Shown piece by piece: positions 6,316 to 60,800 of a DNA stretch of 64,000 bases (its first letter is position 1; every line of letters begins with the position of its first letter). Location of the stretch: positions 186,001-250,000 of the IMG/VR virus record IMGVR_UViG_3300020810_001156; one strand, given 5' to 3'. The notes beneath the pieces are model-generated. The model made no database searches. It saw only the letters and a list, made by a program, of their open reading frames with translations, and had not been told where the DNA came from. Both the position numbers and the translations under genes were made by a program. The stretch comes from a virus.

Positions 6316-6513
6316 ATGAGTGTAGAAACTAAACTAACAACTGTAAAGATTATAAAGGGTGTTTATTCTAACTTTAAAAGGGTTTCTTTTGAATCTGATG
6401 TAACACTTCAAAAATTAGTAAACAGAACAGTTGAACGATATGTAACCGATGAACAATTTAGAGAAGAGATGAATGAATATCTTAAACTCCAAATTTCAGG
6501 TTCACAATTTTAA
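6316..6513 (+). CDS. Small ribbon-helix-helix-like protein
   Basis: A 65-residue protein taken from the ATG at 6316 (an in-frame ATG at 6307 is also possible). The pattern of a short beta segment followed by two helices (TVKIIKGVYSNFKRVSFES, then LQKLVNRTVERYV) is like a ribbon-helix-helix DNA-binding protein. It stands alone between the nuclease and the glycan island, with its own A/T-rich leader, and could be a regulator of that island (inference). No homologue is recognised. Confidence 0.55.
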   Translation: MSVETKLTTVKIIKGVYSNFKRVSFESDVTLQKLVNRTVERYVTDEQFREEMNEYLKLQISGSQF

Positions 6514-6535
6514 AAAAAAGTTATTTAAATAAGTT

Positions 6536-21967: not shown

Positions 21968-21975
21968 TATTTATA
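21966..21975 (+). promoter_or_regulatory. Candidate late promoter motif
   Basis: GATATTTATA just after the last glycan gene, 54 bases before the ATG at 22030. It belongs to a recurring TATATTTATA motif in front of virion-type genes and has no TTTG 20 bases upstream. Confidence 0.4.
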
Positions 21976-22029
21976 CCAAATAAGTTTCATTAATAGGTTA
22001 TAGTAAATTTAATCTAAAAGAAATTTATT

Positions 22030-22257
22030 ATGGCATTTAAAGATATGTTCAAAGACCAAAATGACATCAACGAAAAATCAGTAGTAGGGTTTGCATCATT
22101 CGCAATGATGTGTTTATTTGCAATCGCTGATATAGGTACTGGATTTTTCGGTAAAGATTTAGTTATCCAAGAATTCATTTACAATTCATTCGTAATCATC
22201 ACTCTTGGTTCGTTTGGTATTGCTGAAGTTGGTAAAGTCTTTGGTAAGAAAGAATAA
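22030..22257 (+). CDS. Small two-helix membrane protein (holin-like)
   Basis: A 75-residue protein with two predicted membrane helices (about 18-37 and 48-68), a charged N-terminus and a KVFGKKE tail. Size and topology resemble a class II holin, but no family motif is present. It is a one-gene unit between a TATTTATA motif and a terminator. A protein of similar size and layout is encoded at 61443. Confidence 0.6.
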   Translation: MAFKDMFKDQNDINEKSVVGFASFAMMCLFAIADIGTGFFGKDLVIQEFIYNSFVIITLGSFGIAEVGKVFGKKE

Positions 22258-22265
22258 AACATAAC

Positions 22266-22290
22266 CCCTCTTCGGAGGGTATTGTTTTTC
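22266..22290 (+). terminator. UUCG tetraloop terminator
   Basis: CCCTC (22266-22270), loop TTCG, GAGGG (22275-22279), then a T-rich run. It follows the small membrane-protein stop by 8 bases. Confidence 0.75.
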
Positions 22291-22308
22291 CTTTAAATCA
22301 AAATAGAT

Positions 22309-22318
22309 TATATTTATC
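22309..22318 (+). promoter_or_regulatory. Candidate late promoter motif
   Basis: TATATTTATC, one mismatch from the recurring TATATTTATA, 23 bases before the ATG at 22342 and directly after a terminator. Confidence 0.4.
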
Positions 22319-22341
22319 TTTAGATAACAAAGGTAACTGAT

Positions 22342-22932
22342 ATGGAAAAGTTAAAAAGGTATATCGTTGAAAACTATGATGGACAATTCACTTGGAAACA
22401 ATTAGTAAGTGAAGGAATCCCCAAGTTGTTTTTGAAGATAGAGGCTGTCAAAAAGGAAATTGCAAGATTAGAGGCTGAAAGAAGAGAAGCTGTAAAACCT
22501 TGGAAAACCGAAAAAGACCCAAAAAAGAAAGAAAAAATCCTAAATGTACTTAGAGATTTAACTAAGAAGATTAACGCTAGACAAAAGAATCTAACGCAAA
22601 TGTTAGATATGGAGGAGAAGTATATTTCTCAGATGGCTAAAGATACTGAGTTAGATGCTAAAGCATTTGATGGTGTTTTTGAAGATACTGATTTGGGACA
22701 CCAAGACAATGAACCTGGTATGTTAAGAGCTGATTTAAGTATCATCGAAAGATATGCTGAGGAATTGGGTGAAATGATGAAAGATTTCGATGAAATGAAT
22801 ACTGAAATCGATTTACCTCATTGGTGGCAATCTAAAATCATCAAAGCAAAGGATTACATAGTTGGGGCTAAGCACTATTTAAGAGCTGAGTTAGAAAAAA
22901 CTGACGGTATATTACATAATAAAGATAAATAA
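22342..22932 (+). CDS. Coiled-coil protein, function unknown
   Basis: A 196-residue, highly charged, mostly helical protein. Residues about 30-105 (KIEAVKKEIARLEAERREAV onward) form a probable coiled coil; the rest is helical with an HWWQSKIIKAKDY segment. The short KAFDGVFEDTD stretch resembles DAVFDGVFEDIA in the protein at 52986, a possible distant link. Its position among virion-type genes suggests a structural or assembly role. Confidence 0.6.
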   Translation: MEKLKRYIVENYDGQFTWKQLVSEGIPKLFLKIEAVKKEIARLEAERREAVKPWKTEKDPKKKEKILNVLRDLTKKINARQKNLTQMLDMEEKYISQMAKDTELDAKAFDGVFEDTDLGHQDNEPGMLRADLSIIERYAEELGEMMKDFDEMNTEIDLPHWWQSKIIKAKDYIVGAKHYLRAELEKTDGILHNKDK

Positions 22933-24114: not shown

Positions 24115-24792
24115 GTGATTAAGTTAACTGACATATTAAATGAAGATTGTTGGAAGGGCTACAAACAAATTGGTGGCAAAATGAAGAATGGAAAGATGGT
24201 GCCAAATTGTGTTCCTGAATCGGTTGAAGAAAACTCAATCAATGAAGCTTCAATGACTGTTTCAATTGCAAATGTTGTAGATGAACTTTTTCCAAAGGAA
24301 TTCTTTTGGGTTTATAATCCACAAGATAAAGAAAGAGTAAAATCTGTGATTGGTGATTTGGTTAGAACTCTAAATACTTTCTACAAAAAGCAAGGTATTA
24401 AAGTTAGATTTACAGATTCTAATATTAGAATGAAAATGTACACTAAAGAATCGGCAAGAGAGGATTTAACATCTTCAGAGAGATTAGAACTATATAAGTT
24501 ATACTCAAAGGCGATGAAAGCAATGCCACAATCTCCAAACCAAAAAAAGATTATCAAACAAATTAATGTGTTAAGAACCAAAGCTGGTATGAAACCATTA
24601 AAAGAGGTAACTTTGAATGAGATTGGTATTTTTAATATACAAAGTTACACAAAGGGGATTTTACCTGCAGGATATATGGATACAACAACTCCTCAGAAAA
24701 AAGAAAAATATCGTTCAACAGTTAGAGATTTAATGCAAACATTAAATTCTTTTTGGAAAAGAAATAATATACCATTTAGAGTAAGAAAATGA
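24115..24792 (+). CDS. Putative internal virion protein with duplicated domain
   Basis: A 225-residue protein starting at GTG 24115: MIKLTDILNE-D, the same targeting-like ten residues. Residues 11-34 form a Cys-containing module (DCWKGYKQIGGK...NGKMVPNC). Two homologous segments follow, about 45-104 and 170-225 (RVKSVIGDLVRTLNTFYKK against KYRSTVRDLMQTLNSFWKR). Each is preceded by a cleavage-like site, SINE-A at 41-45 and LNE-I at 167-170. This looks like a small polyprotein that could be cut into two related proteins. Function unknown. Confidence 0.65.
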   Translation: MIKLTDILNEDCWKGYKQIGGKMKNGKMVPNCVPESVEENSINEASMTVSIANVVDELFPKEFFWVYNPQDKERVKSVIGDLVRTLNTFYKKQGIKVRFTDSNIRMKMYTKESAREDLTSSERLELYKLYSKAMKAMPQSPNQKKIIKQINVLRTKAGMKPLKEVTLNEIGIFNIQSYTKGILPAGYMDTTTPQKKEKYRSTVRDLMQTLNSFWKRNNIPFRVRK

Positions 24793-25127
24793 TAAAGTTA
24801 GATGATTTATTACATGATATCGTAAACCATCCACTAAACGAAGATTTGAGAAAGTGGTTTGGTAAAGGAAAGACTGGTTCATCATCTGGTGGTGGTTGGG
24901 ATAGATACGGAACTGATGGACAGAAGTTAGGTAAATGTGGCGATGGTGAAGAAGGTGATGCTTATGCAGCTTGTTTATCTAAAGAAAAGGCAGCTAAGTT
25001 AGGACCTAAAGGTAGAGCTGCATTTGTAAAAAGAAAAAGAGCTGACCAAAAGAAAGCTGGTGATACTAAAAAAGGTGGAAATAGAAAAAAGGGTAAGACA
25101 CCTACCTTTTCAAAAACAGGTGCATAA
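24789..25127 (+). CDS. Basic Gly/Lys-rich protein with capsid-targeting-like start
   Basis: A 112-residue protein starting MIKLDDLLHD, the third consecutive variant of the targeting-like N-terminus. It continues with a Gly-rich GKGKTGSSSGGGWDRYG, a CGDGEEGDAYAAC pair of cysteines, and a strongly basic tail (FVKRKRADQKKAG onward). Gly/Lys-rich Cys modules of this kind are found in several large marine virus proteins, to my recollection. A packaged, nucleic-acid-binding role is plausible. It overlaps the previous gene by four bases. Confidence 0.6.
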   Translation: MIKLDDLLHDIVNHPLNEDLRKWFGKGKTGSSSGGGWDRYGTDGQKLGKCGDGEEGDAYAACLSKEKAAKLGPKGRAAFVKRKRADQKKAGDTKKGGNRKKGKTPTFSKTGA

Positions 25128-25138
25128 TTGTTATTTTA

Positions 25139-25399
25139 ATGGGTAAAAAATTAGTTACTATAAAGGTAATAAAGGGAGATATTAATCGAGCTCTTAAAAA
25201 GTTTAAACGAGCGTGTTTTGATTCTGGACACTTACAAGAACTTAGGGAAAGGCAAACATATACTAAACCTAAAACAGTAAGAAGAACGAAAAAGTTAGAA
25301 GCTATCAGAAGGCAAGAGTGGGAAACTTTAAAAGAAAAGATTGATGGTGGGGATACCTCACTAAAATTATCTCCAAGAAAGAAAAAGAAAAAAAGATAA
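25139..25399 (+). CDS. rpsU: Ribosomal protein bS21
   Basis: An 86-residue bS21 homologue: VTIKVIKGDINRALKKFKRA, then CFDSGHLQELRERQTYTKPK and RRTKKLEA match the bS21 pattern (Arg/Lys-rich helix, ELR-R, Y-KP, RR-K). Cellular bS21 is about 60-70 residues; here a Lys/Arg tail (SPRKKKKKR) is added. bS21 sits on the 30S subunit next to the anti-Shine-Dalgarno region and in Flavobacterium helps to hide it. Phage bS21 genes are known; it could reprogram host ribosomes during late infection. It is set among virion genes. Confidence 0.88.
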   Translation: MGKKLVTIKVIKGDINRALKKFKRACFDSGHLQELRERQTYTKPKTVRRTKKLEAIRRQEWETLKEKIDGGDTSLKLSPRKKKKKR

Positions 25400-25401
25400 G
25401 G

Positions 25402-25411
25402 AATATTTATT
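25402..25411 (+). promoter_or_regulatory. Candidate late promoter motif
   Basis: AATATTTATT, two mismatches from TATATTTATA, ending five bases before the ATG of the fibre-like gene at 25417. Confidence 0.35.
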
Positions 25412-25416
25412 AAGGT

Positions 25417-27903
25417 ATGGCAGATAATGTAAAAATATCAGATTTAACGGAATTAATATCGGGCTCTCTTAGAGATGTTACGATTTTTCCGGTTGTAGAT
25501 GGTGGTGCAACCCAAAAAGCTACATTACTATCTCTACAACAATATCTTGCTGATACTTTAGCAACTGATAGTGAATTAACAGCACAAATTTCTAATGTAA
25601 ATTCTACAATAAATGGATTGGATACAGATGATATAAGTGAGGGTTCAACTAATCAGTATTATACAAACGCAAGAGTTAATCAAATAATTCAAGGATTAAC
25701 AATCATAAGTGGTTCGGGTCAAATTGAAGATTTAGGATTTATTTCTTCAGGTACTAATATTGGACCACTAAATATATTTACAGCATCTTACTACGAAGAT
25801 TCTGCATCCTTTGAGACAAGAATTTTAGCAATATCTGCTAGTAGTGGAGATACTACGCCACAAGGAACTGTATCTAGTTCACAACAAATTACCGATTTAG
25901 GGTTTATACAATCATCAACAATTGATTCTTTATTTATTGCAGATAGATTACCAATTGATATTCTATCTTCATCAGAACAATTAGGACAATTAATTGCAAT
26001 TAATGGTGGTACTAATGTAACTGTTACTTCTGGTAGTGGTGACCAATTAAGTATTGAAATTTCATCTACTGGTGGTGGAGGTGGCGGAGTTGAATATGAT
26101 TCTGAATATGAAATCGTTTCACAATCAAACATTACTGATGAATCTAATGCTAGATTGAGTGGTATGTTGATAAGAGCTAATGATGAAACTACATTCGCTA
26201 ACTTCTCAGCATCTGTTGCTGCTGGTGCTGGTGGAGGTGGTGGTTCTACTGATTACATTTCAAATGTATCAAACACAATAGCTCATACAATTTCATTTAC
26301 TGGAGTTGGTTCAGCATTTAATGGAAGTATAAATCTACCCGATGGTATTGTATCATCATCAACTCAAATTGAAGATTTGGGATTTGCTGGTGGTGGAGAA
26401 AACATTATAGTTAGTGGATTACAAGCATATACTCAATCATTAAAATCAGTAGCTATAATTTCTGGCTCACAACAAATTACTGATTTTGGATTCGTTTCAG
26501 AATCATCAACAACTATTCCACAGGGAACTATTTCTGGTTCACAACAAATTACCGATTTAGGATTTCTTAGTAGTTCAGCCGATTTAACTGGTATTACATC
26601 ATCTGCTGGTGTTGTACTTGCTGACGCTGATAACACTGGATTTGATACATCATTTGTAGGAGAGAACCCATCTAACTTATATTATACTGATGCTAGAGTT
26701 GAAACTCACTTAGGGGTTATAGGTTTATTAACAGGTTCACAAGGATTAGCTAGTGGTTCGGTAACTTCATCCGCACAAATTAATTATGGTGAAATTAGAA
26801 ATATTCCTAAATTTTGGGGTGATGGCGTAACTATATCATCTGGTTCATCAGGTGATACTGCAAATTATATCCAAATTACATCAGCTGGTGGTGGTAGTGG
26901 TACATTATCATCCGAGTTCTACTCATTTACCGCATCATATGAATTAGAAAAAGTTAATTTTATAACTGGTTCTTCACAAATTGAAGCTTTAGGATTTGAC
27001 CCTAATGCTGGTGAAGTTGTAACTTTAAACGCTTGGACTGGTTCTGGTGGAGCATTTGGTATATTCTCACAATCAGTAGTAAACCAAATTGAAAACTTAG
27101 AAACTGGTTCACTTACTGATGATTTCAACTCATTATTGGAAAAAGATTTATTCTCAGGTTCTGCTCAAGTTAATTACGCACAAATACCTGATATACCAGA
27201 CTTTGTAGCTGGTCCTGGTATAGTAATCGCAATTAGTGGTAGTTCATTTGGACAAACCTTTGAAATTAGTAGTAGTGCAGCTTCTGGAGATTTTACAACA
27301 TTAACTGGAGTTCCAGAAGGATTAGTATCATCATCAACTCAAATTGAAAATTTAGGATTTGCAACAACTGGATACGCTGATGGTGTTGGTACAACAACTT
27401 CACAATCATTAGAATCAACATTTAATGGATTTAGAGGTGATATAGGTGCTATTCAAGCCGATTACGCTAATTTGGGTGGTAACACATTTACTGGTTCTCA
27501 ATTAATCAAAGCTTTAGTAACAGTTGATGAGGTTTATGTAACTGGTTCATTATCTTTAACTTCTGGTGAGGGTAAAATAAAAGTTAATACTGGGATTCCT
27601 TCGGATATAGTACAAATGACTGGTTCATTTAAAGTAACGGGTTCGATTGAAGCAGATGAGTTTATTGTAGGTTCTGCAGGAACACCAACCATTTCATCAG
27701 CAACTAATATTGAAGTATCGGCATCGGCTGATATTAATATGATAGCTCAGGAAGTTAACATTACTGATGTATTAACAATAACTCCAAGAACAACAACACC
27801 TTCATCACCATCATCTGGTAGTTTTATTGTAAGTGGTAGTGGAGCAACTATAAAGCCATTCTTCTATGATGGCAATCAATGGCAAGAGATATCATTCGTA
27901 TAA
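25417..27903 (+). CDS. Large tail-fibre-like repeat protein
   Basis: An 828-residue Ser/Gly/Thr-rich protein. It opens MADNVKISDLTEL, a start common in phage structural proteins, and contains about nine copies of a motif of the form (V/I)S(S/G)SxQI(T/E)DLGF, for example VSSSQQITDLGF and ISGSQQITDLGF, plus two variants reading AQ(I/V)NY. The C-terminus has short beta repeats (VTGSLSLTSG, MTGSFKVTGSIEADEF) and ends FFYDGNQWQEISF. No transmembrane or catalytic motif is visible. A trimeric, beta-rich distal fibre or baseplate adhesin is most likely. Confidence 0.8.
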   Translation: MADNVKISDLTELISGSLRDVTIFPVVDGGATQKATLLSLQQYLADTLATDSELTAQISNVNSTINGLDTDDISEGSTNQYYTNARVNQIIQGLTIISGSGQIEDLGFISSGTNIGPLNIFTASYYEDSASFETRILAISASSGDTTPQGTVSSSQQITDLGFIQSSTIDSLFIADRLPIDILSSSEQLGQLIAINGGTNVTVTSGSGDQLSIEISSTGGGGGGVEYDSEYEIVSQSNITDESNARLSGMLIRANDETTFANFSASVAAGAGGGGGSTDYISNVSNTIAHTISFTGVGSAFNGSINLPDGIVSSSTQIEDLGFAGGGENIIVSGLQAYTQSLKSVAIISGSQQITDFGFVSESSTTIPQGTISGSQQITDLGFLSSSADLTGITSSAGVVLADADNTGFDTSFVGENPSNLYYTDARVETHLGVIGLLTGSQGLASGSVTSSAQINYGEIRNIPKFWGDGVTISSGSSGDTANYIQITSAGGGSGTLSSEFYSFTASYELEKVNFITGSSQIEALGFDPNAGEVVTLNAWTGSGGAFGIFSQSVVNQIENLETGSLTDDFNSLLEKDLFSGSAQVNYAQIPDIPDFVAGPGIVIAISGSSFGQTFEISSSAASGDFTTLTGVPEGLVSSSTQIENLGFATTGYADGVGTTTSQSLESTFNGFRGDIGAIQADYANLGGNTFTGSQLIKALVTVDEVYVTGSLSLTSGEGKIKVNTGIPSDIVQMTGSFKVTGSIEADEFIVGSAGTPTISSATNIEVSASADINMIAQEVNITDVLTITPRTTTPSSPSSGSFIVSGSGATIKPFFYDGNQWQEISFV

Positions 27904-27914
27904 AATAAACACCT

Positions 27915-29525
27915 ATGAGAACCTACAATGTAATACTCAAAAAAGGTGTAGATTATGAATCGTTTTGGGATGATATGGAAAATGAAAACGATGGGGGTAA
28001 TCTTTATATCCCTAATCGTAGAGTAGATTCTCCTAACCTTAGACCAGATTCACAAAGACAAACTTGGTACACTCTTTCGGATGAAGAAGCTGAAACTGTA
28101 AGAAATGATGAAAGAGTTCTTGCAGTTGAAATTCCACCCGAAGATAGGGATGATATCGTAATTGGACATCATGCAATCCAAGAGGGTGTATTTACCAAAA
28201 CAACTTCTGATAGTGGTAATTATCAAAATTGGGGATTAATAAGAACTTTATCTAAATCAAATAATTATGGTAGTTCAAATACCTCACCAACTACTGAATA
28301 TCCATATTCATTAACTGGTAAGGGGGTTGATGTTGTAATTCAAGATAGTGGTATTCAAATAGACCATCCAGAATGGGCAGATAGATTTGAATCGGTAGAT
28401 TGGGATACATGGGGTGCTTTTACACAATCATCAAATCACGATAGAGATTATGATGGACATGGTTCACATTGTGCTGGTATTGTAGCAGGTAAAACATTTG
28501 GGTATGCTAAAAAAGCAAAAGTATATCATCAAAAGATAAGTGGATTAGAAGGTAGTGGTGATAGTGGAACTGGTATTTCACCAACCTATGCATTTGATGC
28601 TATTAAAGGTTGGCATAATGCTAAATCAGTTGACCCAAATACTGGGTATGTTAGACCAACTGTGGTAAATATGAGTTGGGGTTATCTGAGAACATTTACA
28701 AATGCTCAAATATCAAACATAAATTATAGAGGTACTGATTATAGTGGTACTGATATTGATACTACAACTGAAAGAGAAAACAATTACGGATTGATGTATT
28801 CATTGTATTCAGTATCAGGTCCAACATATGCTAGTAATTTAAGAATAGCATCGGTTGATACTGATATTGAAGAGTTGTTAGAAGCGGGTGTTCATGTGTT
28901 TGTTGCTGCTGGAAATAGGAGTAATAAAGTAGATGAGAGTGGTGGTGCGGATTATGATAATAATTATACACACACATCATCGGGTACAACTTACTATCAC
29001 AGAGGTTCTTCTCCATATGGTGATGCAGGGCAAGATGGAACTGGACCAAGAGCAATCATAGTTGGTAATATGGATTCATCAGTACATGATACCACAACTG
29101 ATAGAAAAGCAACATCATCGGAAACTGGACCTGGTGTTGATATCTATGCACCTGGTACAAATGTTATGAGTGCAACTTCTAATACAAATAAGTGGGGAAG
29201 TGGTTCTCAAAATTATTATTTGAATTCATCATTTAAGCAAACTAATATATCTGGTACATCTATGGCATCTCCTCAAGTTGCAGGTGTTGCTGCATGTATT
29301 TTAGAATTATATCCACAATGGACACCATCTCAATTAAAACAATGGTTACTGGATAATGCAGGTTCTGCAATCTTAAATACTGGTACTGATAATGATTGGA
29401 CAAATGATAGAAGTTTGAAAGGTGGAGCAGAAAAAGTATTACATTTACCATTTACTTCATCAGAACCTGCAAAAATAAGTGGTTTCGATAATTTAACCTT
29501 TAACATAAAAATCAAAGAACAATAA
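27915..29525 (+). CDS. Subtilisin-like serine protease (S8)
   Basis: A 536-residue protease with the complete triad: IQDSG (Asp144), DGHGSH (His182) and GTSMASP (Ser449). Residues 1-75 resemble an I9-type propeptide, which normally acts as folding chaperone and inhibitor. No signal peptide is present, and the gene lies between the fibre-like gene and the polyprotein-like gene with a 12-base gap, so a virion-associated protease (fibre maturation or host-surface digestion) is more likely than an enzyme exported from the host. Confidence 0.93.
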   Translation: MRTYNVILKKGVDYESFWDDMENENDGGNLYIPNRRVDSPNLRPDSQRQTWYTLSDEEAETVRNDERVLAVEIPPEDRDDIVIGHHAIQEGVFTKTTSDSGNYQNWGLIRTLSKSNNYGSSNTSPTTEYPYSLTGKGVDVVIQDSGIQIDHPEWADRFESVDWDTWGAFTQSSNHDRDYDGHGSHCAGIVAGKTFGYAKKAKVYHQKISGLEGSGDSGTGISPTYAFDAIKGWHNAKSVDPNTGYVRPTVVNMSWGYLRTFTNAQISNINYRGTDYSGTDIDTTTERENNYGLMYSLYSVSGPTYASNLRIASVDTDIEELLEAGVHVFVAAGNRSNKVDESGGADYDNNYTHTSSGTTYYHRGSSPYGDAGQDGTGPRAIIVGNMDSSVHDTTTDRKATSSETGPGVDIYAPGTNVMSATSNTNKWGSGSQNYYLNSSFKQTNISGTSMASPQVAGVAACILELYPQWTPSQLKQWLLDNAGSAILNTGTDNDWTNDRSLKGGAEKVLHLPFTSSEPAKISGFDNLTFNIKIKEQ

Positions 29526-29546
29526 CAACTTTTTAGGTTTTTAATA

Positions 29547-29556
29547 TATATTTATA
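29547..29556 (+). promoter_or_regulatory. Candidate late promoter motif
   Basis: Exact TATATTTATA ending six bases before the ATG at 29563; no TTTG box 20 bases upstream. Confidence 0.5.
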
Positions 29557-29562
29557 GAGTAG

Positions 29563-32034
29563 ATGGGATGGAGTGAGAAATATAAGAAATCAATAGATTG
29601 TAACAACCCAAAAGGTTTCAGTCAAAAAGCCCATTGTGCTGGTAAAAAGAAAAACGAAGATATGGTATTTGAAGAAATAACCGAAGATATTCTAAATGAA
29701 AAGCTGATTACCTATGGTAATAGAAAACCATATGGTCAAGTAGTTTTTATGGCAGGTGGAGCTGGTAGTGGTAAAGGATTCGCTATCAAAAACTTTGTAG
29801 ATTCTGCATCTTTCAAAATTAGAGATGTGGATGAAATGAAGAAACAACTTCAAATTCTCAATAGATTAGGTAAATTAGATATTAGAAGTATCCTAAAAAA
29901 GTATGGTAGAAATATCAAACTTAAAGATTTAGATTTAATCAGAAAGATTGAAAAGGATGGGTACAAACTTCAAAACTTTAATCTTAAAAATCCAGACCAT
30001 GTAATGGCCCTTCACATTTTAGTAAAGGCAATGGGTATTAAAGATAATACTTTAGAAAAACTATTATTGGGTAAAAATAATCCTGAAACTCTTCCAAACA
30101 TTTTATTTGATATCACCGCAAAGGATGTAACCGATATCACTTCAGTTGTTCCAAAATTAAAAGAAGTTGGATACAAAGCAGATAATATTCACTTAACTTG
30201 GGTACTTACAAATTATGTAACTGCAATGGTTAATAATAAGAATAGAGCTAGAATGGTACCTGAGGATATCCTTTTAAAAACACATGAAGGTGCTGCAAAT
30301 ACTATTTGGGGATTAGTAACTAAAGCTCTTCCAAAAGGAATGAATGGTAGAGTTGATGTAATCCTTAATAACCCAGAACACACTGTATTCTATACTGATA
30401 CAGATGGTAAAACTATTAGTGGTGGTGTAAAGGGATTCCTCTCACTTCCACTTAAAAAAGAAAAGGGTGGTATCTTTCCAGAAAAAGTTTGGAAAGATAA
30501 GTTATTCAATTGGGTTAAAGATAATGCACCAGAATCAATCACATCAAATATGAAAGAATCAGTAAACGAAGGTAAGAAATCCAAAGATTCTACCGGTGTA
30601 AGAAAAGCAGAAGCTATTCATAATAATGCAGATACAATCATTGATTTGGTACTTAAAGATAAAAAAGATGTTAAAGAAGTAGTAAGTGTAATGGGGCCTG
30701 TATTGATTAATGCAATAAAAGCAACTTTAAAACATAAGTTCAAACCAATTACTGGTAATGAAGATGCATTAAAAAAGTTTCAATCTAAACTAAAAGATTT
30801 CCTTAAATTCACAGAAGCGTTAGTTAAAAAACCATCAAAGGTTGGTGTTAAAAGACTTGAAACTATGCACAGAGAATGGTGGAATTGGAACCATGGTGCA
30901 GATGTAGTATTAAATGGAAAAATAGGAAATACTATCATTGAATCAGTAAACGAAGGAAAATTCAAACCATCACAAGTTCGTTCAGCAATCTCAAAAGTTA
31001 AAAAAGGACTAATGAGAAAGTGGAAACAAAAAGGTGGATACGAAAACTTTGGACAAAAAGAACTATCTCAAATGAAAGATAAGTTTGATTACAATGCATA
31101 TGGAGATAAGGATGAAAGAGAAATTTCACATATGTTAGATGCATTTGATAATTGGGCAATGAACTACGATGGTAATATGAGAGAAGCAAGAAGGTCAGTA
31201 GTTCACAAAGCTGCAAAGAAAGGAAGTTTTCCAGTATCTTTAGTAGTGGTTAAAAATGGTAAAGTAATTGACCAAGAGTTAGTAAAAACTCCAGAAGCTG
31301 TACCTGCTGCATTTAATGTTATTCAATCAAAACACAAAGGAGCTACTGTTCATATTGAAGATAAAACAGGTAAAAGATTATTTTCAGAATCAATAGATGA
31401 GGGTATGTTCTCCCTTATAGACCAAATCAGAGATGAATCTAAGAATGTTAAAGATTTTATTAAGAATGTTCTTTCTGATAGAAACTTTAAGGATATGAAA
31501 AACGATAAACAATTTATCCAATACTTAGGTTCTATCTATGAATCGGTAAACGAAGCAATGGATATCAATGACCCTATCTTAGTAAGATTGAGAGCATCAG
31601 CGATTGAAAAAGCTGAAAAAGAAAAATTAGCAAAAATAAGAGCAGCCCAAATGAAGAAAAACCAAATGGCTGCTAAAAAACTCCAACAAGCAGAACTCAA
31701 AATCAAAGCACTCAAAAAGAAGAGAGCAGAGGTAATGAGAGATATGGAACAAGAAGCTGAAGCAGAAGGTGGACCAATCGCTGATAGATATGGTAACTTA
31801 TTAAATAAGATTGATAACGATATCATCAAATTGGGAGGTAATCCAATGAGTGAATCAATCGAAGAAAGAATCAATCTATTCGTAGAAGAAAACGTACCAA
31901 CTAAACCAGACAAATGGTCATATGCAGTTTCTCAAGCAAAAGAGAAATTTGATGTATATCCATCGGCATATGCAAATGCATGGGCTTCCAAGAAATATAA
32001 AGAACTTGGTGGTGGTTGGAGAAAGAAAAAGTAA
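29563..32034 (+). CDS. Putative virion polyprotein with P-loop kinase-like domain
   Basis: An 823-residue mosaic. Residues 1-30 form a Cys module (GWSEKYKKSIDCNNPKGF). A P-loop domain follows, Walker A MAGGAGSGKGFA (63-74) with RDVDEMKKQ (87-95), reminiscent of zeta-toxin-like kinases. Cleavage-like sites recur: SVNE-G at 336, SVNE-G at 464, IDE-G at 613, SVNE-A at 664. They divide the chain into segments, including a charged coiled coil (about 673-735) and a final module KFDVYPSAYANAWASKKY with GGGWRKKK. The pattern suggests processing by a T4 gp21-type protease inside the prohead. Individual functions are unknown. Confidence 0.65.
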   Translation: MGWSEKYKKSIDCNNPKGFSQKAHCAGKKKNEDMVFEEITEDILNEKLITYGNRKPYGQVVFMAGGAGSGKGFAIKNFVDSASFKIRDVDEMKKQLQILNRLGKLDIRSILKKYGRNIKLKDLDLIRKIEKDGYKLQNFNLKNPDHVMALHILVKAMGIKDNTLEKLLLGKNNPETLPNILFDITAKDVTDITSVVPKLKEVGYKADNIHLTWVLTNYVTAMVNNKNRARMVPEDILLKTHEGAANTIWGLVTKALPKGMNGRVDVILNNPEHTVFYTDTDGKTISGGVKGFLSLPLKKEKGGIFPEKVWKDKLFNWVKDNAPESITSNMKESVNEGKKSKDSTGVRKAEAIHNNADTIIDLVLKDKKDVKEVVSVMGPVLINAIKATLKHKFKPITGNEDALKKFQSKLKDFLKFTEALVKKPSKVGVKRLETMHREWWNWNHGADVVLNGKIGNTIIESVNEGKFKPSQVRSAISKVKKGLMRKWKQKGGYENFGQKELSQMKDKFDYNAYGDKDEREISHMLDAFDNWAMNYDGNMREARRSVVHKAAKKGSFPVSLVVVKNGKVIDQELVKTPEAVPAAFNVIQSKHKGATVHIEDKTGKRLFSESIDEGMFSLIDQIRDESKNVKDFIKNVLSDRNFKDMKNDKQFIQYLGSIYESVNEAMDINDPILVRLRASAIEKAEKEKLAKIRAAQMKKNQMAAKKLQQAELKIKALKKKRAEVMRDMEQEAEAEGGPIADRYGNLLNKIDNDIIKLGGNPMSESIEERINLFVEENVPTKPDKWSYAVSQAKEKFDVYPSAYANAWASKKYKELGGGWRKKK

Positions 32035-32051
32035 TTTGGAAAATCCAAATT
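32033..32051 (+). other. Inverted repeat over a -33 box
   Basis: AATTTGG (32033-32039), five-base loop, CCAAATT (32045-32051). It lies directly after the polyprotein stop, so it may be a weak terminator, but no long T-run follows and it covers the -33 box of the next promoter, as at 5350 and 23255. Confidence 0.55.
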
Positions 32052-32066
32052 AATTTCGTATATTTG
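32035..32066 (+). promoter_or_regulatory. Bacteroidetes-type promoter before the APS-kinase-like gene
   Basis: TTTG 32035-32038, exactly 20 bases, TATATTTG 32059-32066; ATG at 32085 is 18 bases downstream. Confidence 0.85.
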
Positions 32067-32084
32067 AACAATTAAAATAAAGTT

Positions 32085-32570
32085 ATGGCAAAAGGTAACA
32101 TATACTGGTTTACAGGCCAACCGGCTCACGGAAAAACTGTACTCGGTAAGAAGTTAGTCGAACTCCTCCAAACCGAGAAAAGAAATTGGAGAAAAGATGT
32201 ATTCCATGTAGATGGTGATGACCTAAGAGCCCTCACTGTAAATAAAGATTATTCAGAACAAGGTAGAATTGATAACATTCGTAGAGCTCAGATGATTGCT
32301 GAGTATCTTTGTAATAACGAATGTGATGTGGTCGTATCATTAGTAGCACCTTATGAATGGTTAAGAGAAGAATTTAAAGAAAGAATCGGTTTAGATAATT
32401 TTCAAGAGTTCTATGTACATTGCGCTACTCCAAGAGAAAGAGACCACTTCCATGCAAAGGATTATGTAGCACCTCAAAAGAATTTTTTTGATGTTGATAC
32501 TACAAAAGACAATCCGAATCAATCATTCACAAAAATCGTAAATCATTTAAGAGAAACAAATAAGTTATAA
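32085..32570 (+). CDS. cysC: Adenylylsulfate (APS) kinase-like protein
   Basis: A 161-residue P-loop kinase of the CysC type: FTGQPAHGKTVLGKKL (about 9-24, Walker A), FHVDGDDLRALT (about 42-53, DGDxxR of APS kinases), then the QGRIDNIRRAQMIAEYL region that contacts APS. APS kinase makes PAPS, the donor for sulfotransferases such as the one at 15176. The family also includes related small-molecule kinases, so the substrate is not proven. The stop overlaps the next ATG by one base. Confidence 0.82.
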   Translation: MAKGNIYWFTGQPAHGKTVLGKKLVELLQTEKRNWRKDVFHVDGDDLRALTVNKDYSEQGRIDNIRRAQMIAEYLCNNECDVVVSLVAPYEWLREEFKERIGLDNFQEFYVHCATPRERDHFHAKDYVAPQKNFFDVDTTKDNPNQSFTKIVNHLRETNKL

Positions 32571-32968
32571 TGGCAAATTTTCAAGCAAAAGCAGACAAAG
32601 AGAGTTCCTCTACGGAAAAGAAATATTCAGTATTTTTCGGGAGATGGCAACCATTTCACAAAGGTCACTATTGGCTAATTAATGAAAGGTTGAAAGAAGG
32701 AAAAAATGTGTGGGTAGCAATCAGAGATGTAAAACCTGATGAGAAAAACCCTTGGACAGCACATGAAATAATGATGAACCTTTCAGAGGAATTAAAAGAC
32801 CTCATTGAAGAAGGTAAAATCTTTTTATCAATTGTTCCTGATATTGAATCAATCAATTATGGAAGAGGGGTAGGATACGATGTAATTGAACACGTACCAC
32901 CACAAGAAATAGGTGAAATCTCTGCAACTTCTATTAGAGAACAAATGAAAAAAGATGGTAAGTTATAA
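32570..32968 (+). CDS. Cytidylyltransferase-like nucleotidyltransferase
   Basis: A 132-residue HxGH nucleotidyltransferase: SVFFGRWQPFHKGHYWLINE (about 20-39, HKGH at about 31-34) and the C-terminal ISATSIREQMKKDGKL, the ISSTxIR nucleotide-binding motif. The fold covers NMN-, pantetheine-phosphate- and glycerol-3-phosphate nucleotidyltransferases; which one cannot be told. It is translationally coupled to the APS-kinase-like gene and overlaps the next gene by 14 bases. Confidence 0.82.
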   Translation: MANFQAKADKESSSTEKKYSVFFGRWQPFHKGHYWLINERLKEGKNVWVAIRDVKPDEKNPWTAHEIMMNLSEELKDLIEEGKIFLSIVPDIESINYGRGVGYDVIEHVPPQEIGEISATSIREQMKKDGKL

Positions 32969-33167
32969 GAGACACATTGCTAAAACTATAAGTTGGAGGA
33001 TTATTGGTACATTAGATACAATGATACTATCAGCTGTAATCACTGGAAGTTGGGAAATGGGATTAGCTATCGGAGGTGTAGAAGTATTCACAAAAATGAT
33101 ACTTTATTTCCTTCACGAAAGAGCTTGGTATAGATTTTCTAAGTTTGGTGTAGAAAAAAAGGATTAA
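32955..33167 (+). CDS. DUF2061 membrane protein
   Basis: A 70-residue protein matching DUF2061: KRHIAKTISWRIIGTLDTMI at the N-terminus, GVEVFTKMILYFLHERAWYR at the C-terminus, with two short membrane segments. DUF2061 genes are often found beside sulfate-activation genes in bacteria, which fits the upstream APS-kinase-like gene and suggests the trio was acquired together (inference). Confidence 0.85.
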   Translation: MVSYKRHIAKTISWRIIGTLDTMILSAVITGSWEMGLAIGGVEVFTKMILYFLHERAWYRFSKFGVEKKD

Positions 33168-33169
33168 TC

Positions 33170-33179
33170 TATATTTATA
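33170..33179 (+). promoter_or_regulatory. Candidate late promoter motif
   Basis: Exact TATATTTATA, 34 bases before the ATG at 33214. Confidence 0.45.
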
Positions 33180-33213
33180 TACATAGAAACAAAAACATAA
33201 ATAGTATATAAAA

Positions 33214-33780
33214 ATGGAAGATGTTACAAATGGGGAATCATTATTTCCCCAATATGACCCAACCAAAGATTTATCACAAGCACCTAAACAAAGAACCAAA
33301 CGAGGTTTAGGAGCCAGACCACTTTTAGAATCTGAAATCAAAGAGATACAACAAAAGGCTCGTTCTGCGGCAGAAGCTGCAAGAATGTTGGGTGTATCCT
33401 ATAACACATATAAAAAATACGCTAAAGAATATGGTATCTTTGAGGATTTGAAAAATCCACATGGTATTGGTATTCGTAAGGGAACTAATCCTGGTACATT
33501 AGCACATTCTTTAGATGATATTTTAGAAGGAAAGTATCCAGATTATCCAGTTTGGAAACTTAAAAAGAGATTACTCAATAATGGGTATATGTTAGAGAAG
33601 TGTAACAACTGTGGATTCGAAGAAAGAAGGGTAACTGATTTCAGAGTTCCATTGGTGTTAGATTTCTTAGATGGGGATAGATGTAATCATAAACATGAGA
33701 ATCTTAGGATGTTATGTTTTAATTGTTCATTCCTTATAAATGGCAACCTTACAGGTCCAAAAAAAGAGTACGAATATTAA
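33214..33780 (+). CDS. HTH protein with degenerate HNH-like zinc domain
   Basis: A 188-residue protein. Residues about 48-72 (SAAEAARMLGVSYNTYKKYA) are a helix-turn-helix. Residues about 130-176 have CNNCGFEERR, then LVLDFLDGDRCNHKHENLRM, then LCFNCSF: the layout of an HNH domain with two CxxC zinc pairs. At the position of the first catalytic His of HNH enzymes (usually LHHIDGD) there is Asp-Phe, so nuclease activity is doubtful; it may be a DNA-binding regulator derived from an HNH homing enzyme. Confidence 0.7.
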   Translation: MEDVTNGESLFPQYDPTKDLSQAPKQRTKRGLGARPLLESEIKEIQQKARSAAEAARMLGVSYNTYKKYAKEYGIFEDLKNPHGIGIRKGTNPGTLAHSLDDILEGKYPDYPVWKLKKRLLNNGYMLEKCNNCGFEERRVTDFRVPLVLDFLDGDRCNHKHENLRMLCFNCSFLINGNLTGPKKEYEY

Positions 33781-45050: not shown

Positions 45051-45674
45051 ATGGAAAACAAAATGAAAAAATACTTAAATTTATTACTACTTATCATCCT
45101 ATTTGGATGTACTGCTGAAGCGCAGGAAATCACTCCATCTCAAGACCTGAGAGAAGAGGTAATTGTGGAAACTCCTATCTTTAAAGTGTGGTACTCTGAA
45201 GTGAAGGAACAACCCACAAAAGTGACCTATACGGTCTTATGTCCTACACCCGGTGTGAGTAGAGATGGATTAGATTTTTATACGGAATCGGATTATCATA
45301 CTTCGGATGATGATGATTATTATTCTAATCCTTGGGATAAGGGACATATGGCACCTGCTGCGGCATTTAATTGTAGTAGGGATATGTTGAAACAAACATT
45401 TACTTATCTAAATTCTGCTCTACAATATGAATCTCTAAATAGAGGAGTTTGGAATAAGTTAGAGGAATTTGAAAGAAATCTTGCTAACTTTTATGAAGTT
45501 AATGTAGAGATACAAATTAACTTTGTAGAGAATCCACCTAAAGTAAGTGGTGGAGCTTCAATACCCGAATCGTTTTTAAAGATAATTAGATGGGGAGATA
45601 AAGAAGAGAGATTTTTATTTCCTAATCAAAATACTTCGGGAACGGATTGGACTGATTATATAGTAATAGATTAG
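45051..45674 (+). CDS. Secreted DNA/RNA non-specific endonuclease
   Basis: A 207-residue NUC1-type beta-beta-alpha-metal nuclease. The N-terminus (KKYLNLLLLIILFGCTAEAQ) is a signal peptide with a possible lipobox ending at Cys. The active site is DKGHMAPAAAF (about 97-107; His acts as base), followed by LNSALQYESLNRGVWNKLE with the metal-binding Asn and the Glu. A start at 45063 is also possible. Export by the infected host could supply nucleotides or degrade competing DNA; the reason for export is unknown. Confidence 0.85.
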   Translation: MENKMKKYLNLLLLIILFGCTAEAQEITPSQDLREEVIVETPIFKVWYSEVKEQPTKVTYTVLCPTPGVSRDGLDFYTESDYHTSDDDDYYSNPWDKGHMAPAAAFNCSRDMLKQTFTYLNSALQYESLNRGVWNKLEEFERNLANFYEVNVEIQINFVENPPKVSGGASIPESFLKIIRWGDKEERFLFPNQNTSGTDWTDYIVID

Positions 45675-47071: not shown

Positions 47072-49048
47072 ATGAAAAAAATATTGGTAATTATGTTGAG
47101 TATGGTGAGTATTTCCCTATCTGCTCAACAAAGTGATACGACTATCGTATTAGATGATGTAGTAATAACTGCTACTAGAAGTGAGATAAGTTTGGAAGAT
47201 TCACCCGTACCAACGGAAGTGATTGGAAAGAAAGAGATTGAAGAACTAAATTTAATTACGATGCAAGACCTCCTTAATTTAAAAGGATTTGTTGCACCGA
47301 TGAAAAGTGGAGGTTTCCAATTAAGAGGATTATCTTCCGAATATGTTTTAGTAATGATTGATGGAGTTCCAATCGCAGGTAGAGAAAGTGGTGCATTAGA
47401 TATCTCGAATATCAACCTTGCAAATGTGGAAAGAGTTGAAATTGTAAAAGGTTCAATGTCTGCACTTTGGGGTAACCATGCAATTGGTGGTGTAATCAAC
47501 ATCATTACAAAGAAGAGTGGAGAACCATCTATAATGTTGAATACACAATATGGAACAAACAACACATCATTAGTTGGATTAACTTCAACAGTGGGTAAAG
47601 ATAAATTTAAGAACATATCTAAGATTACATTAGGAAGTTCAGATGGTTTTGATATCGACCCATTAACTTATGGTCAAAATCAATTACCATTTAAGTTGTT
47701 GAATATTACCAATAGAACTACTTACGATGATGGAACGAACCAATACTCATTAGGATTAACTCACTTAGGAAAAACATCCGAAGGTGAAACTGTAACTGAA
47801 ACAAATACTCAGGGGCAATTAGTACCAGTTGATGAGGTAAACGAATCCCAAAACTTTATTGTTGATTTGAACTACAAAAGAAGTTTTGGTAAATATGTGA
47901 GTGAGATTAAAGTATCTAATTCAAACTTCAGTAACTCAAACAAATCTTCTTTTGAATATTTCGGACAACAAGTAGTTCAGTTAGATGAGAGTGACCAAAA
48001 CATTTTCCAACCTGAGATGATTAACAATTACAATTGGAATTCTAAAAACTCAACTACATTTGGATTTGGTTATAGAGGACACGATTACGATACTGAAAGA
48101 TATGGTGGTGATAAATCTCTAAACTCTTACTTTGGATATGTTCAACATTATCTAAACTTAGATAAACTAAATTTAGTAGTTGGTGGTAGATACGATAACT
48201 ATTCAGATTTTGGAAACAACTTCTCACCAAAAGTATCTGCAACTTATGATTTGGGGAAATTCAAATTGAGTTCATCGGTTGGTTATGGATTCAGAGTACC
48301 TGATTTTAGAACCTTATACATTAACTATGGTGGATTCTCATCTGGGTATTGGGTATTAGGTTCGTATAACATTGAAGAACAAATCAATTTTTATTCTCAA
48401 CAAAATCTAATTGCATTTGTATCTTATGGATTAGAAGATATTACTCAACTAAGTCCTGAAACTTCTATCTCATATGATTTTGGTGTATCGTATAAATTAA
48501 ATGAGAGTAGTAAAGTAGGATTAAACTTATTTAGAACCAATACAACTGATTTGATTGAATCAGTTCTTGCTGGAATGTTTGTAAACCAAACTTTACTTTT
48601 TGGATACACAAATATCTCAGAAGCAACATTTACAGGTTTAGAGTTTGAAACTTTGATTCAAAAAGATAGATTTAGATTTGATGGTTCTTATCAGTATTTA
48701 GAAACTGAAGCAAATAAAGCAGATGGAACTGAATTCTTTTTGGGTGAAAGACCTAAACATTTAGTTAACCTTGCAACTACTTATACATTGAAGAATGGTT
48801 TATCATTAACTTTAAATGGAGTTCATAAATCAGAGTACTTCTTTAGAGATGTTGATAGAAGTGGAACTCAGGACGCAAATGAGTTTGTACCTTCTCACAC
48901 ATTGTTGAATACTTTGATAAGTTCTCCTGTTGTTAAGAATATGACAGTTGGTGTTGGTGTTAACAATATTTTAGATTTTACTAATGTAGAGTATCTAAAA
49001 CAACAAAATGGTAGAACCATTTTTGGAAAAGTAACTTATAAATTTTAA
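47072..49048 (+). CDS. TonB-dependent outer-membrane receptor
   Basis: A 658-residue receptor. It has a signal peptide (ILVIMLSMVSISLSAQ), a TonB-box-like DDVVITAT (28-35), a plug domain (about 40-165: PVPTEVIGKKEIEELNLI, MQDLLNL, GFQLRGLSSEYVLVMIDG, VERVEIVKGSMSALWGNHAI) and a 22-strand-type barrel ending in aromatic Phe (FGKVTYKF). Length fits the BtuB/siderophore group without the CarboxypepD plug extension of SusC proteins. It would take up a scarce substrate, possibly a metal chelate; the ligand is not visible. A complete receptor in a phage replicative genome is highly unusual. Confidence 0.93.
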   Translation: MKKILVIMLSMVSISLSAQQSDTTIVLDDVVITATRSEISLEDSPVPTEVIGKKEIEELNLITMQDLLNLKGFVAPMKSGGFQLRGLSSEYVLVMIDGVPIAGRESGALDISNINLANVERVEIVKGSMSALWGNHAIGGVINIITKKSGEPSIMLNTQYGTNNTSLVGLTSTVGKDKFKNISKITLGSSDGFDIDPLTYGQNQLPFKLLNITNRTTYDDGTNQYSLGLTHLGKTSEGETVTETNTQGQLVPVDEVNESQNFIVDLNYKRSFGKYVSEIKVSNSNFSNSNKSSFEYFGQQVVQLDESDQNIFQPEMINNYNWNSKNSTTFGFGYRGHDYDTERYGGDKSLNSYFGYVQHYLNLDKLNLVVGGRYDNYSDFGNNFSPKVSATYDLGKFKLSSSVGYGFRVPDFRTLYINYGGFSSGYWVLGSYNIEEQINFYSQQNLIAFVSYGLEDITQLSPETSISYDFGVSYKLNESSKVGLNLFRTNTTDLIESVLAGMFVNQTLLFGYTNISEATFTGLEFETLIQKDRFRFDGSYQYLETEANKADGTEFFLGERPKHLVNLATTYTLKNGLSLTLNGVHKSEYFFRDVDRSGTQDANEFVPSHTLLNTLISSPVVKNMTVGVGVNNILDFTNVEYLKQQNGRTIFGKVTYKF

Positions 49049-49055
49049 AAACTAT

Positions 49056-50222
49056 ATGAAAAAGATGATTTTATGTGGATTGATGTTGCTGATGGGTACA
49101 TCATCTTTTGCTTCTCACCTATTGGGTGGGTACATTCAAACAACTCAAAGGAATTCAAGTGATACTGTTGATGTGGTAGTAACTTTATTTACTGACCCTC
49201 AAGGAATTGGTAATCCAACTTCTATTTCTTTAGCGGAATGGAAATTGGTAAATGGTTTTTATCAAACCAATGGTAACTTTACACTTTCTCAACAACTAAC
49301 TGGAAGTTGGCAAGGTGTAAATGTGTATGTGTATAGTGGTATTAGAATATTAAGTAGTGGTGATTATCGTTTCATCTACACCAATTGTTGTAGAGGAATG
49401 TTGAGTAACGCATCATCTGCAATGAATAGTAACTTTACTATTGCAATGGATTACAAAAAATCACTTCTACCAAACTCAGCACCTATCATTCTCAACCCAC
49501 TTCCAATCAATTGGGTAAATGGTGATACTGCACAATCAATTCTATTTGCGGTAGATGTAGATGGTGATTCGGTAATGGTTGAAAAGGATGATGCTATTAA
49601 CCAACACTCAAACAATACATTTGTACCACTTTCACCATTTACTCAATTAGGTAGTTATGGTAGTTATTATGTGGATGTAAATGGAACAATTGAATGGGCT
49701 CCAAATACCAATGGAACATTTGGTACTGGATATAAAGTAAGTGAAATCAGAAATGGACAAGTTATTGGAGTGAATAGAATTCAACAAGTCTATATGGTTC
49801 AACCTGGTTCAACACCAAATGTACCAAACTTAAACCCAATGATTACAGCCGATTTGGTAAATGGTGATTCACTTCAATATACCACATCCATTTCAAACGC
49901 AACTTCAACTGAGTTGATTATTCCAAATGTAGATGTAACTCAAACTTCAGATTCAACTTGGACTTTGAATAATCTTCAAATGGGAACATACAATGGAGTA
50001 TTGAGAGCTAGTAGTAACTCATCAAATATGGATTATTACATTACTTTAGTGGTAACATCTACAATCGGAATCGAAGAGAATGTTTCAGATATGGATACTT
50101 CTTACGAAGTTTACGATTGGACTGGAAAATACATTGGTAAAGATGTAAATTGGGAGCAATTAAATGGTTTGTATATAATTAAACATAGTAACGGAACAAT
50201 AGAAAAAATCTACAATATATGA
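49056..50222 (+). CDS. Secreted protein with type IX-like C-terminus
   Basis: A 388-residue exported protein with a signal peptide (KKMILCGLMLLMGTSSFAS). The body begins HLLGGYIQTT and contains YRFIYTNCCRGMLSN, similar to secreted Bacteroidetes beta-sandwich proteins with PKD-like folds. The last about 50 residues (VYDWTGKYIGKD, LNGLYIIKHSNGTIEKIY) resemble the type A sorting domain of type IX secretion cargo. It starts eight bases after the receptor stop, so the two are made together; it could be a surface lipoprotein-like partner of the receptor. Confidence 0.75.
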   Translation: MKKMILCGLMLLMGTSSFASHLLGGYIQTTQRNSSDTVDVVVTLFTDPQGIGNPTSISLAEWKLVNGFYQTNGNFTLSQQLTGSWQGVNVYVYSGIRILSSGDYRFIYTNCCRGMLSNASSAMNSNFTIAMDYKKSLLPNSAPIILNPLPINWVNGDTAQSILFAVDVDGDSVMVEKDDAINQHSNNTFVPLSPFTQLGSYGSYYVDVNGTIEWAPNTNGTFGTGYKVSEIRNGQVIGVNRIQQVYMVQPGSTPNVPNLNPMITADLVNGDSLQYTTSISNATSTELIIPNVDVTQTSDSTWTLNNLQMGTYNGVLRASSNSSNMDYYITLVVTSTIGIEENVSDMDTSYEVYDWTGKYIGKDVNWEQLNGLYIIKHSNGTIEKIYNI

Positions 50223-51108: not shown

Positions 51109-51303
51109 ATGAAATATGGTATATTGTTTATCATTGTTATTTTATTTTCTGGTTTTTCACAAACTGAAAGTGAGTGGGAAAAGAAATACAACTCGGTGAA
51201 GGAAGAAAGAGATATGTACAAAAAGACATCAGAGATGTTGTTGAAAAATTGGAAAGAGTGTGAAGAAAAAGTAACAAAGATTATTAGTGAGCAAGTTAAT
51301 TAA
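51109..51303 (+). CDS. Small exported coiled-coil protein
   Basis: A 64-residue protein: a hydrophobic N-terminal helix (YGILFIIVILFSGFS) that looks like a signal peptide or anchor, then a charged coiled coil (EWEKKYNSVKEERDMYKKTS). It resembles an outer spanin in size but has no lipobox. It overlaps the next gene by 17 bases. Confidence 0.5.
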   Translation: MKYGILFIIVILFSGFSQTESEWEKKYNSVKEERDMYKKTSEMLLKNWKECEEKVTKIISEQVN

Positions 51304-51841
51304 TTTATTTGGAGGACCAGGCATAGGAAAATCAGGCATATCAGCTGGATTAACTTATGAATTAAAGAAAAGACATATTAGTTGTAATAACCCATATGAG
51401 TTTCCAAAGAGATTAGCATGGGATAACAACATACCAGCGATACAAGACCAATTGTATGTATTCGCTAACCAACATAGAGGAATCGCAGAATCCTTTGGTA
51501 AAGTAGATTATATCGTTATTGATTCACCAATTCTATTTTCTACAATTTATCACACATATTATACTGAAGGGTATCCTGCTGAGTTTTATGGTGAAGAGTT
51601 TCACAAATTTGTGATTCATCTTCACAAACAATACACAAGTATCAATATTCTTTTGGAAAGAGGTGATACAATTCACAATGATGATGAAAGATTCCAAAAT
51701 CTAAAACAATCATTGGAGATAGATGATTTGTGTAAAAAAATATTAAAAGATAATGATGAAACTTATCACACAATCAAAGTAGATGAGTTTACTGTTGAAA
51801 AGATTTTAACATTATTGGATTTAAATAATGAAAAAAGATAA
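51287..51841 (+). CDS. P-loop NTPase / kinase-like protein
   Basis: A 184-residue P-loop protein: LINLFGGPGIGKSGISAGL (4-22, Walker A) and VDYIVIDSPILF (about 73-84, Walker B). The layout (short, single domain, with a central helical insert and INILLERG) is like nucleoside- or NadR-type kinases (AAA_28 group). The substrate is unknown. No frameshift; it overlaps both neighbours. Confidence 0.7.
   Translation: MSKLINLFGGPGIGKSGISAGLTYELKKRHISCNNPYEFPKRLAWDNNIPAIQDQLYVFANQHRGIAESFGKVDYIVIDSPILFSTIYHTYYTEGYPAEFYGEEFHKFVIHLHKQYTSINILLERGDTIHNDDERFQNLKQSLEIDDLCKKILKDNDETYHTIKVDEFTVEKILTLLDLNNEKR

Positions 51842-59171: not shown

Positions 59172-60800
<1,629 letters not shown>

Follow-up and report, generated by a model that had tools for sequence, protein, structure and literature searches.

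A TonB-dependent receptor gene of a marine Bacteroidota jumbo phage and the nuclease-kinase cassette around it

Why should a phage encode a TonB-dependent receptor (TBDR), when phages are, to our knowledge, known as binders of such proteins and not as makers of them? The question is raised by a gene, here called receptor 1, in a 64,000-nucleotide stretch of DNA (the window) that comprises bases 186001-250000 of the IMG/VR virus record IMGVR_UViG_3300020810_001156 (252,603 bp; hereafter G000). We lean towards the explanation that receptor 1 is a native, regulated phage gene, encodes a transport-competent receptor, and sits where a modular import cassette of phages has its receptor; the gene content, gene order, selection, promoter sharing and recurrence on which this explanation draws are observed. 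Because related virus fragments repeatedly carry a TBDR beside a secreted nuclease and a nucleotide-kinase-like gene, our findings suggest that these phages make infected cells take up outside food, possibly broken-down nucleic acids.

Receptor 1 as a gene of the phage

As far as can be read from its sequence, receptor 1 has the features by which a TBDR is recognized. In particular, it has a signal peptide (MKKILVIMLSMVSISLSAQ), a TonB-box-like segment (TTIVLDDVVITATR) in a region that aligns with other family members, a plug domain (PF07715, E=3e-21, residues 41-141), a barrel domain (PF00593, E=3e-35, residues 212-633) and a C-terminus, ...YKF, that ends in an aromatic residue; both domain matches are above the curated cut-offs. 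The initial annotation had claimed a complete TBDR in a phage genome, and the signal peptide, TonB box, plug, barrel and terminal Phe are indeed all present. (An AF2 model of receptor 1, made from a 3-row alignment, had a pLDDT of 26 and was too poor for use.)

The record itself contains, by PHROG match, the hallmark genes for terminase, portal, major head protein, contractile tail sheath, DNA polymerase, UvsX and primase, which identifies G000 as a T4-like myovirus, and we conclude that it is a large T4-like jumbo phage of marine Bacteroidota. One strand holds nearly all of its genes, and the GC content across the receptor 1 segment (0.31-0.34) is the same as that of the phage. Consistent with this, the phage setting, the phage-like base composition, the gene calls and the operon running on into an epimerase gene had all been described correctly. 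IMG/VR records are fragments, and G000 is incomplete, since an independent contig (L264 7241-17497) runs ~10 kb past its left end.

Receptor 1 also occurs, at 85% identity, in two viral contigs from other metagenomes (L002 and L003). The same epimerase gene as in the window lies directly 3' of it in both, and the same methyltransferase gene lies 5' of it in L002, the contig that extends upstream. An alignment-based scan for more viral relatives of receptor 1 returned only L002 and L003 again, and no close chromosomal match was found in ~800 sampled Bacteroidota genomes, the best being ~33% identical over its full length. An assembly chimera of host and phage DNA would fit with a TBDR being unusual in a phage and with the presence, in this record only, of the exported-protein gene that follows receptor 1. 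For receptor 1, however, this explanation is already refuted, and we put its probability close to nil: the gene keeps its neighbours in two contigs from other metagenomes, it has a phage promoter and no close host match, and the second TBDR of this phage (receptor 2, described below) is also encoded by another contig, whose sequence is 99.99% identical to that of the left end of G000. Both of the doubts that the initial annotation had raised about its own reading, chimeric assembly and a host chromosomal match, are answered by these data. The shared flanks in L002 and L003, together with the phage hallmark genes and the shared phage promoter, make it virtually certain that receptor 1 is a native phage gene.

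The promoter of receptor 1 had been taken for a host-type promoter, and proves instead to be one of 13 copies of a phage-wide motif. Sites of the form TTTG-N20-TATATTTG, which we take to be a general Bacteroidota promoter shape, number 13 in the window, where 4.2 were expected, a count that none of the shuffles attained. The longer motif TTTCGTATNTTTG has 13 copies in the record, all of them on the plus strand, where 0.02 were expected per strand. Sites that read TTTG-N~20-TTTCGTATNTTTG lie at window positions 1649, 5350, 16939, 32035, 33793, 42990 and 47022, and others lie elsewhere in G000. Other copies of TTTCGTATNTTTG precede the primase gene and genes that we assigned by eye to a putative single-strand-binding protein and a nuclease, and L002 has a one-base variant of the promoter at the same site as in the window. 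The recurrence of TTTCGTATNTTTG across the phage, on the plus strand only, argues that receptor 1 belongs to the phage's own regulon. This set of promoters probably defines a middle/replication regulon, and the motif supports the idea that receptor 1 is expressed in infection.

To describe selection we used the ratio of non-synonymous to synonymous substitution rates (dN/dS), comparing the window with L002. The ratio is 0.15 for receptor 1 overall and 0.05 in the TonB box and plug; for the neighbouring phage enzymes it is 0.06-0.16. The parts that serve in transport are the most constrained, as fits a working transporter, and receptor 1 is very probably transport-competent. With respect to what is expected of an auxiliary metabolic gene (AMG), receptor 1 belongs to a genuine phage genome, evolves under purifying selection and has been conserved in relatives.

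The cassette and receptor 2

The features around receptor 1 are as follows (window coordinates, except for the last line).

45051..45674, plus strand: Endonuclease_NS (DNA/RNA non-specific nuclease) with a lipoprotein-type signal; homologues lie directly 5' of receptor 2 in seven related phage loci
45694..47034, plus strand: DNA methyltransferase; upstream flank of receptor 1, conserved in L002
47022..47053, plus strand: phage-type promoter TTTG-N20-TATATTTG, core TTTCGTATATTTG, 19 bp 5' of the receptor 1 start codon
47072..49048, plus strand: TonB-dependent receptor 1, 658 aa, with signal peptide, TonB box, plug, barrel and terminal Phe; nearest cellular family, HmuR-type haem receptors
49056..50222, plus strand: exported surface-type protein, 388 aa, beginning 7 bp after the receptor 1 stop; ASHLLGG N-terminus, C-terminus resembling those of type IX secretion system (T9SS) substrates; not in L002 or L003
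50219..51076, plus strand: NAD-dependent sugar epimerase/dehydratase, overlapping the exported-protein gene by 4 bp; directly 3' of receptor 1 in L002 and L003
51109..51303, plus strand: 64-aa exported open reading frame (ORF) at the position of the S1/P1 nuclease in L002 and L003, overlapping the kinase start likewise
51287..51841, plus strand: P-loop kinase (AAA_28; thymidylate-kinase PHROG), the final cassette gene in related phages
G000 20180-22900 (outside the window), minus strand: receptor 2, a TBDR of 906 aa with a CarboxypepD_reg domain; the sole convincing minus-strand gene of the record

Receptor 2 is, like receptor 1, a complete protein of its kind, but is unrelated to receptor 1 beyond the fold, and in G000 it is inverted and lacks the phage promoter motif. 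A scan of IMG/VR contigs revealed relatives of receptor 2 in at least 423 viral stretches; the best 80 of the 423 were fetched, and the neighbour counts given here rest on these (79 loci). At least one further gene homologous to a G000 gene was present in 80/80 of the fetched viral loci and at least two in 76/80, whereas among the cellular receptor 2 loci that we used for comparison 16/80 had one such gene and 0/80 had two. The receptor does not reach the SusC cut-off of TIGR04056 (96 vs 368 bits), and no SusD was noticed in receptor 2 neighbourhoods.

The order of genes in these relatives is (Endonuclease_NS lipoprotein) - TBDR - (small protein with three transmembrane segments) - exported S1/P1 nuclease - nucleotide-kinase-like protein. 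A kinase homologous to that of the window is found one to four genes downstream of receptor 2 in 42/79 phage loci, the S1/P1 nuclease lies a short way 3' of it in 19, and the Endonuclease_NS lipoprotein lies directly 5' in 7. Further neighbours are IMP dehydrogenase (IMPDH; 17/79), ribonucleotide reductase (RNR; 12/79), ThyX, GTP cyclohydrolase, a phosphoribosyltransferase and the small membrane protein, which has no confident family, one variant being YgjV-like. When whole receptor 2 records were considered (n=42), S1/P1 was present in 12, adjoining receptor 2 in every case, and Endonuclease_NS in 13, adjoining it in 7. A reverse scan with the phage S1/P1 proteins gave 33 viral loci besides one already known, with a TBDR alongside in 29 (receptor 2 in 27, receptor 1 in two); two of the others are cut at a contig edge and two lack a TBDR. 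In 30/33 of these loci the kinase gene lies less than 600 bp from the S1/P1 gene, often overlapping it. The nuclease matches PF02265 (E=3.5e-62; L002 and relatives): the catalytic W, H and D residues, including the Zn-ligand His and Asp, are invariant, and the Trp at the mature N-terminus aligns with residue 1 of solved S1/P1 nucleases. Note that no S1/P1 nuclease match was found in 50,697 deposited phage records, so the cassette would have gone unseen there.

In L002 and L003 the order is receptor 1 - epimerase - 82-aa membrane protein - S1/P1 - kinase, and in the window it is Endonuclease_NS - methyltransferase - receptor 1 - exported protein - epimerase - 64-aa exported ORF - kinase. Read from gene order, receptor 1 is in the cassette slot where relatives have receptor 2; the latter, the original receptor of the cassette, is now elsewhere in G000, inverted. 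Receptor 1 is thus no isolated oddity, but fills a slot in a recurrent phage cassette, in a phage that has a second, commoner TBDR.

Receptor 2 is constrained in the same manner as receptor 1, with dN/dS of ~0.04-0.20 overall and 0.01-0.10 in the plug in pairwise comparisons, and with plug constraint in most pairs. In a tree of 136 tips, phage and cellular receptor 2 sequences interleave, with 19 parsimony changes, and phages probably acquired this family on several occasions. (Somewhat fewer acquisitions took place than the tree implies, since at least two 'cellular' contigs, L103 and L143, binned as Flavobacteriaceae and Crocinitomicaceae, look by gene order and tree position like misbinned phage.) Such interleaving, and a receptor 2 gene that in G000 is inverted and without the promoter motif, might be expected of passenger host genes (morons) kept by chance and without benefit in infection. 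The strong purifying selection (dN/dS well below 1), the 423 viral stretches and the conserved cassette order argue against passengers, and we consider this explanation very improbable.

The 388-aa exported protein is not part of the cassette as it occurs elsewhere. It is absent from L002 and L003 and no relative was found in viral contigs, so receptor 1 and the exported protein do not form a conserved pair. (A second assembly, G841, stops short of this region, and an AF2 model of the protein, with a pLDDT of 35, was too poor for use.) Its description as a type IX-like secreted protein holds in part: the protein is exported and its C-terminus is T9SS-like by eye, but it matches neither TIGR04183 nor PF18962, and profile searches gave no match to any other part of it. 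A distant cellular relative, in L261, shares with it the signal peptide and the ASHLLGGYIQ that comes next, and contains a genuine T9SS type A sorting domain (E=1.2e-11) that matches both TIGR04183 and PF18962. The exported protein is thus probably a surface protein of the T9SS type whose sorting domain has degenerated.

Other genes were seen near the receptors or elsewhere in the phage. Beside phage receptor 2 genes we found a NAD synthase gene (L053 9458-10207, by Pfam) and a glutamine-synthetase-like gene (L087 4085-5155, by eye), which indicates that other nutrient genes share the receptor 2 region. A cluster of at least six exported proteins and lipoproteins occupies G000 24696-33258; among them are a protein with a PA14-like domain and another with long SEG/E-rich repeats. 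Related genes adjoin receptor 2 in L084, L096 and L100. G000 also has an acyl-CoA dehydrogenase gene (6310-7452) with an IMPDH gene in the same region, and at window 59175-60800 a GroEL-type chaperonin gene with a GroES-like gene (by eye) directly upstream.

Purpose and ligand

The strongest hint to the class of ligand comes from bacteria. In L128 (Ca. Arcticimaribacter) and L260, the gene after a receptor 2 homologue encodes an S1/P1 nuclease, and next comes a convergent gene for a NupC-type nucleoside transporter, the nuclease and NupC being confirmed by Pfam; a third genome, L121, has the receptor and the nuclease on a short contig. The bacterial and phage clusters share the TBDR family and the exported S1/P1 directly 3' of it, and differ in that the phages lack the inner-membrane transporter and have the kinase next instead.

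We therefore think it likely, on the evidence of neighbouring genes and constraint, that the purpose of the phage receptors is nutrient import, and phage-made TonB-dependent import would probably feed nucleotide synthesis. Whether the role of the cassette is the scavenging of nucleic acids is a proposal on which our confidence is evenly divided. More tentatively, we propose a mobile cassette for extracellular feeding in large Bacteroidota phages, consisting of a surface or periplasmic nuclease, a dedicated TonB-dependent transporter, an exported S1/P1 nuclease and a kinase, with which the infected cell would take up nucleic acids of lysed neighbours and build phage DNA. The host Sec and BAM machineries would export and assemble the phage-made receptor, and the host's TonB-ExbBD would supply the energy (neither a TonB nor an ExbB was noticed in the phage). 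The exported nucleases, whose enzyme family and catalytic residues are observed, would cut nucleic acids outside the inner membrane, and the TBDR would carry the breakdown products over the outer membrane. Host inner-membrane transporters, along with the phage kinase, RNR, IMPDH and thymidylate synthase, would then channel these products into phage DNA.

Several observations weigh against this proposal. The S1/P1 gene has been lost from the window (it is replaced, with the kinase overlap kept). The assignment of the kinase is weak, as it has no PDB match and AAA_28 also includes NadR-type kinases. The reverse scan was seeded with TBDR-linked nucleases and is hence biased to that family, although the two S1/P1 loci without a TBDR indicate that other contexts could be found by it. 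The receptor 2 gene is widespread in Bacteroidota genomes, and most of its cellular homologues adjoin pgi and not nucleases, so that only some lineages show the nuclease link. Receptor 1 keeps 77/123 of the positions conserved in the HmuR family and, of a conserved pair of His residues, the one at position 563 (position 377 is Tyr); no HmuY gene lies beside it, the 388-aa neighbour having no PF14064 match and the epimerase gene taking that place in L002 and L003. Lastly, exported nucleases could equally destroy incoming phage DNA.

That last point bears on the main rival explanation, in which the cell surface is remodelled for superinfection exclusion: the phage TBDR would displace or mask the host receptor of competitors, and the exported nucleases would degrade incoming or free phage DNA. 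TBDRs commonly serve as phage receptors, and such a role would fit with the exported nucleases that accompany the TBDR, with the probable repeated acquisition of the TBDR family by phages, and with the additional surface protein in the window. However, the strongest constraint is in the TonB box and plug (dN/dS 0.05), which are relevant to transport; bacteria share the TBDR - S1/P1 pair beside a nucleoside transporter; the kinase is translationally coupled to the nuclease; and receptor 1, only ~33% identical to its nearest sampled host homologue, would be a poor mimic. We regard superinfection exclusion as unlikely. Of the options offered by the initial annotation, nutrient uptake is the best supported. 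The other two, a decoy or a host-receptor replacement that blocks superinfection, are less favoured because constraint is highest in the TonB box and plug and because genes for exported nucleases and nucleotide metabolism recur as neighbours.

Nutrient import, which we prefer, could involve a ligand other than nucleic acids. The best full-length cellular matches of receptor 1 belong to the single-copy HmuR family, present in ~20% of the sampled genomes, and in 18/20 inspected cellular relatives a HmuY-family gene lies directly 3' (six of the 18 were confirmed as PF14064 and the rest called by mutual similarity). In Bacteroidota, HmuY-HmuR operons serve in haem uptake and are regulated by iron (PMC10434189). 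Receptor 1 matches this family best and keeps the plug and the PDFRxLY...GYxVLG motif; it differs in being phage-borne and only ~33% identical, with one conserved His changed to Tyr, without HmuY and among other neighbours. It also misses the NCBIfam cut-off for TonB-hemin (TIGR01785; 140.5 vs 316.85 bits), as do those HmuY-linked cellular relatives that were tested. The likenesses would favour a receptor 1 that is simply a haem or iron importer boosting the infected cell, functionally unrelated to the neighbouring nucleases. The differences, and the fact that receptor 1 is in the nuclease-cassette slot and has S1/P1 and kinase genes 3' of it in L002 and L003, speak against it, and we consider it distinctly unlikely. 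Haem or iron as the ligand of receptor 1 is a separate matter, and is a lead rather than a result, held at somewhat less than even confidence: receptor 1 may import haem or iron, and the arrival of an HmuR-like receptor in the slot may have added this uptake to the cassette or may have been followed by a change of ligand. (The exported protein was ruled out as a HmuY, as it does not match PF14064. A role in vitamin B12 uptake, suggested by the best NCBIfam match, TIGR01779, which is far below its cut-off, was set aside because the cellular relatives are HmuY-linked and the RNR looks class I by eye.)

Relation to known phage receptors and significance

The only reports of phage-encoded TBDRs that we found in the open-access literature are a brief mention and an annotation. 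A putative SusC-type TBDR in the megaphages Mar_Mega_1 and LR745206 was proposed to serve in carbohydrate uptake (PMC9723777), and an annotated TBDR of the pelagiphage Skadi was interpreted as an adsorption receptor (PMC10504331). In addition, an ExbB AMG has been proposed in Lentisphaerae phages (PMC11361711). Distant matches to receptor 2 occur in LR745206 and LR756502 (27-31% identity). The megaphage receptor resembles those described here in being phage-encoded; it differs in that other receptor families are involved, that no cassette, selection, promoter or recurrence was reported, and that the neighbours in phages of the G000 type are nucleases and nucleotide enzymes. A conserved TBDR-nuclease-kinase cassette of phages was not described in any open-access report that we found. 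As with known phage AMGs, host-derived nutrient genes would be expressed by a lytic phage; the cassette differs from these in acting at the outer membrane with exported hydrolases and not in cytoplasmic metabolism.

What is new, then, is a single TBDR family that recurs across hundreds of viral contigs, evolves under purifying selection, and is found time and again together with genes for exported nucleases and nucleotide metabolism. If the import reading is true, phages would control the entry of phosphorus- and nitrogen-rich material into infected marine Bacteroidota, and the nucleotide source of large phages, an old question, would become testable.

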